From: Candidatus Melainabacteria bacterium
Lineage (GTDB): Bacteria > Cyanobacteriota > Vampirovibrionia > Obscuribacterales > Obscuribacteraceae
Direction: 5' to 3'
Assembly: GCA_003963305.1 (NCBI GenBank)
Contig: RXJR01000009.1
Span: 372,150-436,149 of the forward strand
Length of the DNA stretch: 64,000 nucleotides
Shown here in pieces: positions 58,429 to 63,769 of this stretch. Each line of letters begins with the position of its first letter. The stretch's first letter is position 1. The notes below the pieces were generated by a model. That model searched no databases, had not been told where the DNA came from, and was given only the letters and a program-made list of their open reading frames with translations. Position numbers and translations under genes: made by a program.

Positions 58429-59634
58429 CTACAGTTTTATAGGCACTGTCCATCCCAGCAACTTGATGGCATCGACGACCTTCATGCCTCCCCGCAGGCA
58501 ATAGCTCATTATGATCATTGACTGATCCAGGTTTAAATGTCCTTCTTTGATTGCCTGCCGCAGTGTCTCTGCTGTTTGTGTAACTTGCTTTTCCTCGGCT
58601 GCATCGAATACTTCTAAATCTTCAGTCAGGCGTTCGTGCTCCGGCAGATGCGGTCGATCTGCAGTTGATACCAGCTGTGATACCGGTACGCCTGTCAGTG
58701 CTCCTGCCAAACGGAGGAATTCATCCTGACTGATGTCTCGTTGATACTTCGTCTCAGGACTAGTTTCGCGTGCAACGCACTTATCCAGTGATTCGTTAGT
58801 CTTATGCATGTGATTTAGAGCTCTAATAGCTGCTTCTTTTGACAGCACTTTGCAGGAGACGAGCTTTTGTAATTCCAAACCGGCATTGAGTTTGTCTTCT
58901 GTAATCCATTCAAGGTCAAGAAGAGTCTCTCCTACACGCTGGTCGCCCTGCACGGACATTTCAAGGGCGGTGAGTAAATCGCTGGTAGAAATTATGCCTG
59001 ACTCGACCAGCAACTCACCGATACGCAGATCTGGACCGCGTTTCTGGGTAGAGGCTCGATTGGAGAGATTGTGTTCGACATGCTTTATTCTCTCTCTCAA
59101 GGAGCAGAGTTGCGAAATTGCCATGTCTCGATTTAGCTGCCCGTTGCGAATTTTGGTTTGGATGTCTAGCGTGCTCAACAAAAGTGGTCGGGAAAGGGCG
59201 TTCGTGAGGACAAGTACCCTGCCCAGTGGCAACATGCTTGACTGACTGGTGGCAAGCGCTTTAGTCAATTTCAGTTGATCTACCAGTTTGGATGCGGAGA
59301 GCAATTCACCCAGAGTACTGCTTTTAACGTCGTTATCTCTCGACCATCGCATTTCTTTTAGGGCTGCATTGAGTGTCAGTCCTCGTTTCTTGACGATCTG
59401 GATAGCATGAACGACCTGATCTTCGGTAGCCAGACCGTCTTTCAGCATCGATTGTGCCTGGACCGCCGTTCGCAAAATGCGGTCTGAAATCTCTCCGGAC
59501 ATGACAAGAACGCTGCCGACCGGTAAATCTGTGGTTCTATTCAGTTGCAGGAGGTCCTCAAGCTGGTCACCCTTGAGTAGTTCCATTTTCTTTAAGAGCG
59601 GACCAATTCTTAGGTCGGTCTGGACCTGTTCCAT
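58429..59634 (-). CDS. Protein of three MshE-N/GspE-N-like repeats
   Basis: ATG 59634 is used since MEQVQTDLRIGPLLKKMELL starts the first repeat; the frame opens at 59667. The 401-residue soluble protein consists of three ~90-residue repeats, each with 'xxGxLLxxxxxxxxxxLxxAL..Q....lGxxLxxxxxxxxxxLxxAL..Q': starts near residues 8, 112 and 210 (RIGPLLKK, TLGELLSAS, RIGELLVESG). The pattern resembles the N-terminal domain of GspE/MshE ATPases, which binds c-di-GMP in MshE. A signalling or adaptor role is inferred only. The conserved Gly and Leu of each unit are kept; the Arg residues that bind c-di-GMP are not clear. Confidence 0.7.
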   Translation of the reverse strand: MEQVQTDLRIGPLLKKMELLKGDQLEDLLQLNRTTDLPVGSVLVMSGEISDRILRTAVQAQSMLKDGLATEDQVVHAIQIVKKRGLTLNAALKEMRWSRDNDVKSSTLGELLSASKLVDQLKLTKALATSQSSMLPLGRVLVLTNALSRPLLLSTLDIQTKIRNGQLNRDMAISQLCSLRERIKHVEHNLSNRASTQKRGPDLRIGELLVESGIISTSDLLTALEMSVQGDQRVGETLLDLEWITEDKLNAGLELQKLVSCKVLSKEAAIRALNHMHKTNESLDKCVARETSPETKYQRDISQDEFLRLAGALTGVPVSQLVSTADRPHLPEHERLTEDLEVFDAAEEKQVTQTAETLRQAIKEGHLNLDQSMIIMSYCLRGGMKVVDAIKLLGWTVPIKL

Positions 59635-59741
59635 GAGATACCTGCGGTCGCGATTTAAGCCACACACATTTCATACCACACGACTATGGCATGTCTCACC
59701 TTTACTTAACGGCTTTTCCTTATCGTGGAGTAGGTTTTGGG

Positions 59742-59775
59742 CTTGAATTTTTTCCGATATCGGAAAAAATTCAAG
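59742..59775. repeat. CCGATATCGG palindromic repeat, copy 11
   Basis: A 34-bp perfect palindrome (CTTGAATTTTTTCCGAT and complement). It lies 90 bp before the leuA leader promoter and upstream of the repeat-protein gene on the other strand. Confidence 0.93.
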
Positions 59776-59864: not shown

Positions 59865-59893
59865 TTGACAATGTTCTGAGGCTGCCATATAAC
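59865..59893 (+). promoter_or_regulatory. Promoter of the leuA leader
   Basis: TTGACA at 59865-59870 and TATAAC at 59888-59893 are separated by exactly 17 bp, an excellent sigma-70-type promoter. The expected start site, about seven bases after the -10, falls at ~59900, the A of the leader ATG. Confidence 0.85.
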
Positions 59894-59899
59894 ACTCAT

Positions 59900-59986
59900 A
59901 TGTCAACCAAGCGCTCTGAAATTCCTGCGACCTCCAGCCTTACGCTAACGCTACTAGGCGGACTACTACTGCGCGGAATTTTTTAG
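59900..59986 (+). CDS. leuL: leuA leader peptide (28 aa, Leu-rich)
   Basis: ATG 59900 to TAG 59984-59986 encodes a 28-residue peptide, MSTKRSEIPATSSLTLTLLG followed by GLLLRGIF with one more Gly between. Seven Leu codons lie in the window 59939-59971, five of them CTA. The stop codon directly precedes the antiterminator strand (59987-59993) of a terminator before leuA. This matches leu operon attenuator leaders, where a ribosome stalled for Leu-tRNA prevents termination. It is too short to be found by length-based gene prediction. No Shine-Dalgarno site can exist if transcription starts at the predicted point, so translation would be leaderless. Confidence 0.85.
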   Translation: MSTKRSEIPATSSLTLTLLGGLLLRGIF

Positions 59987-60046
59987 ACAGAGCAACTAAC
60001 TTAAGACATCAATTCTCAAGGCTCTGTTTTCTACAGAGCCTTTTTT
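59987..60046 (+). terminator. leuA attenuator: antiterminator strand and terminator
   Basis: Terminator: AAGGCTCTGT (60018-60027) pairs with ACAGAGCCTT (60033-60042), a 10-bp stem, loop TTTCT, with T-run 60041-60046. Alternative: ACAGAGC (59987-59993) pairs exactly with GCTCTGT (60021-60027), which removes the terminator's left arm. The two structures exclude each other. A ribosome at the leader stop (59984-59986) would cover 59987-59993 and allow termination, whereas one stalled on Leu codons would leave it free. Confidence 0.87.
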
Positions 60047-60071
60047 GTCACTCAAATCAAGGAACCAGCAA

Positions 60072-61736
60072 ATGAACGCCGAACAAACTAAGGATCGTCA
60101 TATCAAAATTTTCGATACGACCTTGAGAGATGGTCAGCAATGCCCAGGAGCGGGCATGGATTTCGAGCACAATCTCGAATATGCCAGGCTGGCTTGTGCC
60201 CTTCGCGTCGATGTATTAGAAGCTGGTTTCCCCTCAGCCAGCAAGATGGACTTTGACATTGTTCGCACTATTTGCGAAGAAGTGGCAACAATGGACTATA
60301 AGCCGACCATAGCTGGTTTGTGCCAGTTGCGTGAAGAGCAAGTAATTCGCACAATCGAGTCGTTGCAGCCGCTGGTCCCATTCGGCAAAGCTCGTTTGCA
60401 TACTTATGTTCCAGTTGACCCTGAATTGATGCCGGCCTCTCTCGGTAAGCTTGCCGATGACAAAGAGAGAATCATCGCCGACCTTTATCGACTGACACGC
60501 ATGGCTGTAGAAGCCGGCATGGAAGTTCAGTTCAGCCCTGAAGGTTACTCACGCATGCGGGGGAACTTCGATTTCACAACCGATTTGATTCGCGCCGCCA
60601 TACAGGCTGGCGCCACTGTCATCAACTGTCCTGACACAATAGGCGGCGCCTCGGTATTTGAAGGTGAAGACTATTTTGTGAGGAAGATGGTCAGACATGC
60701 TGAAATCATGCGTCGAGAGTTTCCGGCGCAAAACATCATCTGGTCAGTACACTGCCACAATGATTTCGGATTGGCGGTCCAGAACTCCTTGAACGGGGTA
60801 ATTGATGGACCGGCCTCACAAATTGAAGGATGTATCAACGGTATTGGTGAGCGGGCTGGAAACGCTGCGCTTGAACAGTGCATCATGATCGTCAAACATT
60901 TCAGTGAAGCTTCCGGCAACGAAAATCCCTATTACACGACTGTGGCGACTGAGAAGTTGCAGGAGATTTCTGATTTTGTCAGTCAGCACATGTTGCCCCG
61001 CCAGCCGCACTGGCCCGTTAGTGGAGACAACGCCGCCAAGCATTCTTCCGGCGGTCATACAAATGCTATTTTGAAGAACCCCATGGCCTATCAGCCGTTT
61101 GACCCGAAAGAGATCGGTAAGAAAATTTCTTTCTTGTTTGGTCCTTTGAGCGGTGGCAATCATGCCAAATCAATCATCGAAGACTTTGGCTATATCTGTG
61201 AAGAGTCGGAAAAGGCAGAAGTCGCCCAGTTCATAAAAAATCAGTTCCCGCTGCGTCGTAAGGGCATTACTGACGATGAGTTGTTCGGTGCTTATGTGAA
61301 GTATCGTCAACCAATTCATATCGAATCGATTGAATACTCCAAACAGGCTGACAGAGCGCAAGTTAAGCTGCTGGGAAGATTCTTTGACGAAGTCGGTCTG
61401 GTAGAAGAAGACAACGCCGGACGCGATTCAGCCCTTGCAGCAGTAAAAAATGCCATTGAAAAACGTTTCGGCAAGTTCCAGATTCTCAGCCACAGAAGCC
61501 ATTCTGATGGCGCAGGTATCGATGCTTGCAGTATTTCAGAGATCTACATAAGCACAGAAAGCGGAATGCAATTTAAAGGCAACGGTCAGGATCACGACAT
61601 CGAGATCTCTGCTATCAAGGCATTAATTGATGCTGTTAACAGAGCTTATGTTCACAGGCATTTCGCTGTAAACTCTGAATCTGTCGCCGTTATGGGTGGC
61701 AAAGAAGAGAAGTCGAAACAAGTTTCGGTGGCGTAA
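60072..61736 (+). CDS. leuA: 2-isopropylmalate synthase
   Basis: ATG 60072 follows AAGGA and fits the family; the frame opens at 60045 inside the terminator tail. The 554-residue enzyme condenses acetyl-CoA and 2-oxoisovalerate in the first step of leucine synthesis. Visible motifs: KIFDTTLRDGQQCPGAGM (metal-binding Asp), LEAGFPSAS, FSPEGYSRM, CHNDFGLAVQNSLNGVIDG (metal His), and GIGERAGNAALEQC. The C-terminal ~140 residues match the allosteric domain for leucine feedback. Expression is controlled by the upstream leader-peptide attenuator. Confidence 0.97.
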   Translation: MNAEQTKDRHIKIFDTTLRDGQQCPGAGMDFEHNLEYARLACALRVDVLEAGFPSASKMDFDIVRTICEEVATMDYKPTIAGLCQLREEQVIRTIESLQPLVPFGKARLHTYVPVDPELMPASLGKLADDKERIIADLYRLTRMAVEAGMEVQFSPEGYSRMRGNFDFTTDLIRAAIQAGATVINCPDTIGGASVFEGEDYFVRKMVRHAEIMRREFPAQNIIWSVHCHNDFGLAVQNSLNGVIDGPASQIEGCINGIGERAGNAALEQCIMIVKHFSEASGNENPYYTTVATEKLQEISDFVSQHMLPRQPHWPVSGDNAAKHSSGGHTNAILKNPMAYQPFDPKEIGKKISFLFGPLSGGNHAKSIIEDFGYICEESEKAEVAQFIKNQFPLRRKGITDDELFGAYVKYRQPIHIESIEYSKQADRAQVKLLGRFFDEVGLVEEDNAGRDSALAAVKNAIEKRFGKFQILSHRSHSDGAGIDACSISEIYISTESGMQFKGNGQDHDIEISAIKALIDAVNRAYVHRHFAVNSESVAVMGGKEEKSKQVSVA

Positions 61737-61799: not shown

Positions 61800-61853
61800 T
61801 AAGAAATCGCAGGGCGTGAAATCGCCTCGTCTTCTTCCTATATTTTGGATGTC

Positions 61854-61934
61854 GTGAACAACAACTCTATTCTAGTAGTCGGTATTAACGTCCTAGTGCT
61901 AATTATGCGCTATCGGTGCGGGCCGCCTGCTTAA
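61854..61934 (+). CDS. ilvD leader peptide (26 aa, Ile/Leu/Val-rich)
   Basis: GTG 61854, behind GGAT, to TAA 61932-61934 encodes VNNNSILVVGINVLVLIMRY then RCGPPA. In the run ILVVGINVLVLI (61869-61904) ten of twelve codons are Ile, Leu or Val, exactly the products of the pathway containing ilvD and ilvC. The peptide's C-terminal codons overlap the antiterminator strand at 61915-61922. This is the expected design of an ilv attenuator leader. The start codon is the least certain element; an ATG two codons upstream is out of frame and stops at once. Confidence 0.85.
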   Translation: MNNNSILVVGINVLVLIMRYRCGPPA

Positions 61935-61985
61935 GCAAGCAATGAACAATGCCCCGCACCTTATCCAGGTAGCGGGGCTTTTTTT
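61915..61985 (+). terminator. ilvD attenuator: antiterminator strand and terminator
   Basis: Terminator: GCCCCGC (61951-61957) pairs with GCGGGGC (61972-61978), extended by ACCT/AGGT, with T-run 61979-61985. Alternative: GGTGCGGG (61915-61922) pairs perfectly with CCCGCACC (61953-61960), destroying the terminator. The upstream strand lies inside the leader peptide's last codons, so a ribosome finishing the peptide masks it and lets the terminator form. Confidence 0.87.
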
Positions 61986-62092: not shown

Positions 62093-63769
62093 ATGCATAG
62101 CGACGCAATTAAGAAGGGAATCAGTCGAGCGCCGGCTCGAGCTATGTTGAAGGCAACTGGTTTGACCGACGAAGATTTGAGCAAGCCGCTTGTCGCCATT
62201 GCCAACACCTGGACCGAAGCGGGTCCGTGTAACTATGGATTGCGCGATCTTTCAGAAAAGGTCAAGGAAGGTGTTCGTAAAGCTGGTGGTACTCCGATTG
62301 AATTCAACACAATCGTTGTATCAGACGGCATCTCGATGGGGACAGAGGGAATGAAAGCCTCTCTCGTCTCGCGTGAAGTAATTGCTGATTCAATCGAGTT
62401 GGCTGTGCGTGGTCATATGTTTGACGCTGTTGTGGCTCTGACTGGATGCGACAAAACTACTCCGGCTGCTGTTATGGCTCTGGCCAGATTAGACCTTCCT
62501 TCTCTGGTTATGTACGGCGGCTCGATCATGCCCGGTCATTTCCGTGGACGCGATGTCACTATCCAGGAAGTATTCGAGGGTGTGGGCTCTTGTGCAGCGG
62601 GTCTGATGAGTGAAGCTGATCTGGCAGAACTGGAGAATCAAGCCTGTCCAGGGGCGGGTTCATGCGGCGGACAGTTCACGGCCAACACTATGTCTACGGC
62701 AATAACGTTCCTTGGAATGTCGCCGATGGGAGCCAATGATATTCCTGCGCTGGACCCGCGCAAGCTTGAGGCCGCTAAGCGTTGCGGCGAGATCGTCATG
62801 GACATCTACAAGCAAGGATTGAAGCCCAGTCAGATCATCACCAGGAAGGCGCTCGAGAACGCCATAGCGTCAGTTATGGCGACAGGCGGATCCACGAACG
62901 CTGTCTTGCATCTGCTTGCCATTGCCCGTGAAGCTAATGTGCCTTTGACTCTCGACGAGTTCGACGCCATCTCGCGCAAGACACCTACTGTCGTCGATCT
63001 GAAGCCGGGCGGAAAGTTTGTCGCTCCGGATATGGAGGCAGCCGGCGGTATGAGACTCCTGGCTAAGCGCTTGATGGATGCAGGACATTTGCGTGATGCG
63101 TTGACCGTGACAGGACGAAATCTTTTCGAAGAAGCTGCAGAAGCTGTGGAGACGCCAGGGCAGCAGGTAATCCGGGCGGTTGATAATCCTGTTAAAGCAA
63201 CAGGCGGAATCGTTATATTGCGTGGATCGCTTTCGCCTGACGGTTGCGTGATGAAGATCTCCGGTCATGAAACGAAATATTTCCAGGGACCGGCAAAAGT
63301 TTTCGATTCTGAAGAAGAAACTTTCGAAGGTTTGATGCGCGGTGACATAAAGGCTGGAGACGTTGTGGTAATCCGCTATGTCGGACCTAAGGGTGCTCCG
63401 GGCATGCCTGAGATGTTGCAGGTCACAGGAGCCATCGTCGGAGCCGGTCTGGGGGCAAGCGTCGCCCTGATCACTGACGGGCGCTTCAGCGGAGCCTCCC
63501 ACGGTCTGGTTGTCGGGCATGTCGCCCCCGAGGCAGCCGTCGGTGGACCGATTGCATTAATTCAGAACGGTGATGTTATTACGATTGACGTTGTCAATAG
63601 AAGCCTTAATGTAGAGGGCGACATCAAGTCGCGCGCCAGCGACTGGAAGGCCCCTGAGCCTAAATATAAGACTGGCGTATTTGCTAAATACTGGCAGACA
63701 GTTTCATCTGCGGCTCATGGAGCCGTGACTGGCAGCTTCCCGGACGAGCTTGCCGTAAGCGTTCACTAG
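62093..63769 (+). CDS. ilvD: Dihydroxy-acid dehydratase
   Basis: ATG 62093 is preceded by GGAG at a seven-base spacing. The 558-residue protein has the Fe-S cysteines and signatures of Ilv[81 protein letters not shown], and [20 protein letters not shown]. It dehydrates dihydroxyisovalerate and dihydroxymethylvalerate, the third common step of valine and isoleucine synthesis. It is controlled by the leader-peptide attenuator 108 bp upstream and is co-transcribed with ilvC, 15 bp downstream. Confidence 0.97.

Follow-up and report, generated by a model that had tools for sequence, protein, structure and literature searches.

A 64,000-nucleotide stretch of contig RXJR01000009.1 (the window; GTDB lineage Cyanobacteriota, Vampirovibrionia, Obscuribacterales, Obscuribacteraceae), part of a 7.5-Mb Obscuribacterales genome whose nearest named relatives are Cyanobacteria bacterium SZAS-4 and Melainabacteria isolates, contains directly ahead of leuA a short Leu-rich reading frame followed by two mutually exclusive RNA pairings. 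Judged by its sequence organization and conservation, this element is, with a probability of about 90%, a ribosome-mediated transcription attenuator of the classical type acting on the leuA (leucine/branched-chain) operon. The coordinates of its parts are collected in Table 1. The leader frame would encode MSTKRSEIPATSSLTLTLLGGLLLRGIF* and contains seven Leu codons (one CTT, five CTA, and one CTG). The heptamer ACAGAGC immediately behind the stop codon (strand 2) is the exact pairing partner of GCTCTGT at 60021-60027 within the 5' arm of a terminator (strand 3), from whose hairpin it is separated by a 24-nt spacer. The terminator itself is a ten-pair hairpin, AAGGCTCTGT/ACAGAGCCTT, at 60018-60042 with a T tract at 60041-60046, and is followed by AAGGA (60059-60063), the Shine-Dalgarno sequence for leuA, which starts with ATG at 60072. 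An earlier note, made by a model from the sequence alone, had described a 28-codon frame with seven Leu codons (five CTA) and a post-stop strand matching the terminator arm upstream of leuA; its coordinates and pairing proved exact, and the Cyanobacteria-related lineage that it named was right (Obscuribacterales/Melainabacteria). The combination of a Leu-rich short frame, a post-stop 7-mer, and a matching terminator occurs at one site in the 64-kb window and at none in 20 shuffled windows. Compared with dinucleotide shuffles, the fold of the leader has a z-score of -3.8 and the post-stop part alone of -4.2. The Leu content of the leader by itself is weak evidence (P = 0.009 for 7/27); the case rests on conservation.

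A search for LeuA over 53 Obscuribacterales genomes yielded 24 loci in 24 genomes, and the Leu-rich leader, strand 2, and the terminator are all kept in 22 of them. One further genome, SZUA-149 (L038), counted apart from the 24 of the order, also has all the parts, which brings the number of leaders to 23, each 25-40 residues long with 5-11 Leu. The co-conservation of Leu codons and both stems, which the earlier note had proposed as a check, was thus observed in these 22 loci and the additional genome. An intrinsic terminator is located between the frame and leuA in all 23 loci; counted from the first base of the stop codon, strand 2 begins 2-6 nt downstream in every one of them. The number of residues after the last Leu-Leu is exactly four in 20 leaders and three in the remaining three, and 22/23 keep strand 2 at 17-19 nt from the last Leu-Leu codon. 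In two of the three (L018 and L021) the stop is shifted by one codon and strand 2 is placed 3 nt further downstream, with the Leu-to-strand-2 distance still being 18 nt; this constancy despite the moved stop is as expected for a ribosome footprint. Strand 2 pairs with strand 3 in all 23 loci, and 99.3% of the alignment cells of this helix (2:3) are paired, as are 98.1% in the terminator helix of strands 3 and 4 (3:4). The pairing of both helices exceeds that of all 500 shuffles, and slid strands pair only in 15-59%. The shuffle test of strand 2 at individual loci is weak at some of them (p up to 0.47), given a short shuffled segment and the acceptance of G-U pairs; the counts at the alignment level are the better test.

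The choice of Leu codons was considered separately. The earlier note had asked whether CTA is rare, and it is indeed the rarest Leu codon in the genes of the window (103/1511, 6.8%); with this usage, at least five CTA among seven Leu codons would be expected with P = 2.7e-5. However, the use of CTA is confined to this genus, and the leaders of relatives mostly contain CTG, which accounts for 93 of the 200 Leu codons over all leaders. Rare-codon sensing as a general trait of the element was therefore rejected.

In the proposed mechanism, RNA polymerase would start at or next to the leader ATG, and the ribosome, with no Shine-Dalgarno sequence to guide it, would initiate at the RNA's 5' end. A shortage of charged tRNA-Leu would make it pause in the Leu run with its front edge, as computed from the geometry, about 5 nt before strand 2; the free strand 2 would then capture newly made strand 3, and the terminator would come too late to form. 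When leucine is ample, the ribosome would reach the stop codon and cover strand 2, so that strands 3 and 4 would pair and transcription would end before leuA. This was evaluated with a ribosome-edge model, in which the front edge was assumed to lie about 12 nt downstream of the A-site codon's first base. When the A site holds the last Leu-Leu codon, the modelled edge stops 4-6 nt before strand 2 in 22/23 loci and 2 nt before it in L020; when it holds the stop codon, the ribosome covers strand 2. For the stall at the last Leu-Leu, the model leaves strand 2 free and predicts formation of 2:3 in the nascent RNA (P 0.85-1.0), and for masked strand 2 it predicts formation of the terminator (P 0.87-1.0). 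The modelled geometry agrees with the logic suggested in the earlier note, that is, strand 2 free during a Leu stall and covered at the stop.

The position of the promoter is a part of this picture. TTGAC is located 35 nt upstream of the leader ATG in 20/23 loci and 36-37 nt upstream in the other three, and a -10-like hexamer usually ends 6 nt ahead of the ATG across the loci; a Shine-Dalgarno-like 4-mer precedes the leader in only two. In the window, TTGACA-17-TATAAC was recognized by visual inspection and compared with the relatives, since an automated scan demanding T as the sixth base of the -10 element gave none. Considering this position relative to the ATG and the missing Shine-Dalgarno sequence, a leaderless leader RNA is expected: the transcript should begin at about 59900, at or within 1-2 nt of the leader AUG. 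The predicted leaderless start had been overlooked by the earlier note.

Several observations weigh against the attenuator. Two loci (L013 and L022), both from one genus with small genomes, are without the leader, and a LeuA of this type is missing, at the threshold applied, from 29 of the 53 Obscuribacterales genomes. Compensatory changes are few, because the sequences of the strands are strongly conserved: double-sided changes number six in 2:3 and five in 3:4, at two pairs per helix, as exemplified by GACGAAGCC/GGCTTCGTC in L006 and L010 compared with GACAGAGCC/GGCTCTGTC in other loci. In the window, the terminator exceeds the antiterminator in stability by about 5 kcal/mol, and the equilibrium probability of 2:3 is near 0. 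Since equilibrium favours the finished terminator here and in most of the other loci, antitermination would have to be kinetic. Finally, the protector helix is not conserved. In the enteric model, a protector helix formed by strands 1 and 2 (1:2) gives termination without translation. The window contains an internal GCTCTG able to pair with strand 2, which was absent from the earlier note, but a perfect counterpart was found only in L016, and a conserved strand 1 was rejected. The leu element is not assigned to the enteric four-strand subtype (1:2, 2:3, 3:4); 1:2 is possible in the window and L016. According to the folding model, the untranslated nascent RNA retains 2:3 in most loci, and failed initiation would therefore favour read-through.

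The leu element is accompanied by similar elements at other operons. A second leader, rich in Ile, Val, and Leu and presumably working by the same logic, is located between leuA and ilvD and reads SILVVGINVLVLIMRYRCGPPA; its strand GGTGCGGG is the exact complement of CCCGCACC at 61953-61960 in the arm of the following terminator. A similar leader is found between leuA and ilvD in most relatives sharing this gene order. The attenuator-like element at 61845-61985 also has a counterpart in L013, one of the two loci without the leu leader. Frames with tandem Trp codons followed by terminators precede trpE in 13 of the 14 loci of the family (L085-L098), two of them without an assignable ATG; at the trpE locus of the same genome (L096, G000:C24), CAGGTAAGCTT within the frame and AAGCTTACCTG in the terminator region are exactly complementary. 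Frames with a His run, followed by terminator-like sequence, precede hisG in all 14 loci of the family (L159-L172; in this genome L162, G000:C9:455119). The same kind of scan revealed no leaders before pheA and the homoserine dehydrogenase gene (0/28 loci).

These data also bear on other explanations of the leu element. The one that survives best assumes that it depends on translation without being specific for leucine, e.g., that it senses general translation speed or leaderless initiation. The leaderless start and the unconserved protector suit such an element, since untranslated RNA favours the antiterminator in many species and initiation would thus also be reported; however, it is specifically Leu codons that are conserved beside strand 2, and the trp and his leaders of the same genomes carry their own cognate codons, which makes this explanation improbable. 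Less probable still is a 2:3 switch driven by a sensor other than the ribosome, namely a regulatory protein, a small-molecule aptamer, or uncharged tRNA (T-box). Although the same strands would suit any such sensor, and the leuA leader of actinobacteria (LEU element) was proposed to be protein-binding (PMC1262725), no Rfam family (Leu leader, T-box, or riboswitches) was detected in the window at the gathering level, and only chance-level matches appeared at E up to 10. The space for an aptamer is small, because everything between the 5' end of the predicted RNA and strand 2 is taken up by the leader frame. Which amino acid the run encodes also follows the operon (Leu, Ile/Val/Leu, Trp, His). 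Equally hard to maintain is the proposal that the frame is there by chance or codes for a small peptide with a function of its own and the hairpin is merely a terminator ahead of leuA, which is largely refuted by positional conservation: lone terminator-like hairpins are common (1.6 expected per 2 kb by shuffling) and Leu enrichment is modest when the window is taken alone, yet the Leu codons, the Leu-to-strand-2 distance, and the 2:3 pairing are kept while the N-terminal half of the peptide drifts (with LeuA down to 61% identical), and strand 2 would be unnecessary for a lone terminator.

Table 1. Features of the leuA-ilvD region (positions of the window)
Feature	Position	Strand	Basis or remark
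Promoter	TTGACA 59865-59870, 17-nt spacer, TATAAC 59888-59893	+	sequence, conserved spacing in relatives
Leader peptide frame	59900..59986	+	ATG 59900, 28 codons, TAG 59984-59986; no Shine-Dalgarno sequence
Candidate protector strand 1 (GCTCTG)	59913..59918	+	minimum free energy fold; could pair with strand 2
Strand 2, antiterminator 5' arm (ACAGAGC)	59987..59993	+	directly 3' of leader stop codon
Strand 3, terminator 5' arm / antiterminator 3' arm (AAGGCTCTGT)	60018..60027	+	
Strand 4, terminator 3' arm (ACAGAGCCTT) and U tract	60033..60046	+	
leuA, 2-isopropylmalate synthase (divergent branch)	60072..61736	+	NCBIfam
Second leader frame before ilvD, Ile/Val/Leu-rich (NNNSILVVGINVLVLIMRYRCGPPA)	61854..61934	+	start GTG 61854 or TTG 61845
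ilv antiterminator 5' strand (GGTGCGGG)	61915..61922	+	within last codons of second leader
ilv terminator (GCCCCGCACC...GGTAGCGGGGC) and T tract	61951..61985	+	counterpart in relatives
ilvD	62093..63769	+	NCBIfam

The best NCBIfam matches of the leuA product are 2-isopropylmalate synthases, below the cut-off (303.7 bits vs 532). In having a divergent LeuA, this family differs from several other families of its class and from the remainder of the phylum, where LeuA is canonical. Past 63769 (L043), ilvC, ilvB, a second LeuA-like (citramalate-synthase-like) gene, leuC, leuD, leuB, and an ilvE-like gene were named by reading their translations rather than by family search. The interval that separates the divergent gene 58429-59667 from the leu promoter contains a perfect inverted repeat, CTTGAATTTTTTCCGATATCGGAAAAAATTCAAG, at 59742-59775, possibly a terminator or an operator.

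The distribution of the leaders was followed beyond the family. With a covariance model of the leu element, 22 family genomes score 55-91 bits, and nothing else exceeds 31.3 bits among genomes sampled from the class and the phylum. The matches at 20-31 bits were judged terminator-like and rejected as members, because most of the best cover only the 3' half of the model; they were not inspected one by one. A strict test for the leu pattern at leuA loci, where, as for hisG, the comparison samples were the best-scoring loci and not random ones, was positive in 17/20 loci of the family, in 0/29 from other families of Vampirovibrionia, and in 0/30 from the rest of Cyanobacteriota. Leu-rich frames before leuA in other orders (e.g., L108) failed this test and are among the 0/29. 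The family loci that it missed include L024, which has the leader, and the test is therefore conservative. Frames with a His cluster before hisG were found in 14/14 loci of the family, 0/30 of other families of the class, and 1/25 of the rest of the phylum, the latter without a His run.

In the 2010 survey of Naville and Gautheret, leader-peptide systems were described as known only in Proteobacteria and Actinobacteria, to which Firmicutes were added (PMC2965389), and a 2016 paper from the group of Seliverstov and Lyubetsky stated that there were no reliable data on attenuation in cyanobacteria (PMC4833913). The latter is consistent with the suggestion of the earlier note that such attenuation would be new in a lineage related to Cyanobacteria, and no report of leader-peptide attenuation in Melainabacteria or Obscuribacter was found in the open-access literature. 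The mechanism is classical, and it is the lineage that is apparently new, with the element conserved across a family of non-photosynthetic relatives of cyanobacteria. A wider proposal, which we consider slightly more likely to be wrong than right, is that Obscuribacterales use ribosome-mediated attenuation generally (leu, ilv, trp, and his), that the leu element, as a promoter-locked leaderless switch of three strands lacking a conserved protector, senses both leucine and leaderless initiation, and that its origin lies in this lineage, separate from Proteobacteria, Actinobacteria, and Firmicutes. The family-wide leu, ilv, trp, and his attenuators would offer a deep new branch for asking whether attenuation arose repeatedly, and they give strong, testable predictions for mostly uncultured bacteria. 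The 23 leaders form a natural series that illustrates how narrowly the spacing between sensing codons and antiterminator is constrained.

The attenuator of the enteric leu operon (leuL; Rfam Leu leader) combines a leader peptide containing a Leu run with an antiterminator competing against a terminator just before leuA. The element described here resembles it in all these respects, including the adjoining leuA. It differs in having no match to the Rfam Leu leader even at E 10, in its predicted leaderless start, and in the 1:2 protector, which is not conserved. Leaderless leader peptides are known for leuA, trpE, and ilvB of Streptomyces and for trpL of Sinorhizobium. In Streptomyces lividans, leuA is preceded by leuL1, a leaderless leader peptide with a Leu run (MRFGLLLLSCRGEGL) (PMC8079986), which the predicted leaderless Leu-run peptide before leuA in the window resembles. 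However, the Streptomyces leuA leader was reported to be without a typical intrinsic terminator, and the LEU element was described as a pseudoknot with a base stem pairing Leu codons with the Shine-Dalgarno sequence of leuA (PMC1262725), whereas the loci considered here conserve a plain terminator together with a simple antiterminator; the LEU element is set apart by its description. The Corynebacterium ilvBNC attenuator (PMC11857589, PMC10272879) has a branched-chain leader and attenuates ilv genes; compared by description only, it shares branched-chain leader attenuation and differs in genes and lineage. In Sinorhizobium meliloti, the trpL RNA is leaderless, starting at the leader ATG, and ribosome-mediated attenuation with a terminator was described (PMC7298713). 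The leu element of the window would share with it a leaderless leader and attenuation by a terminator, with Leu in place of Trp and in another phylum.
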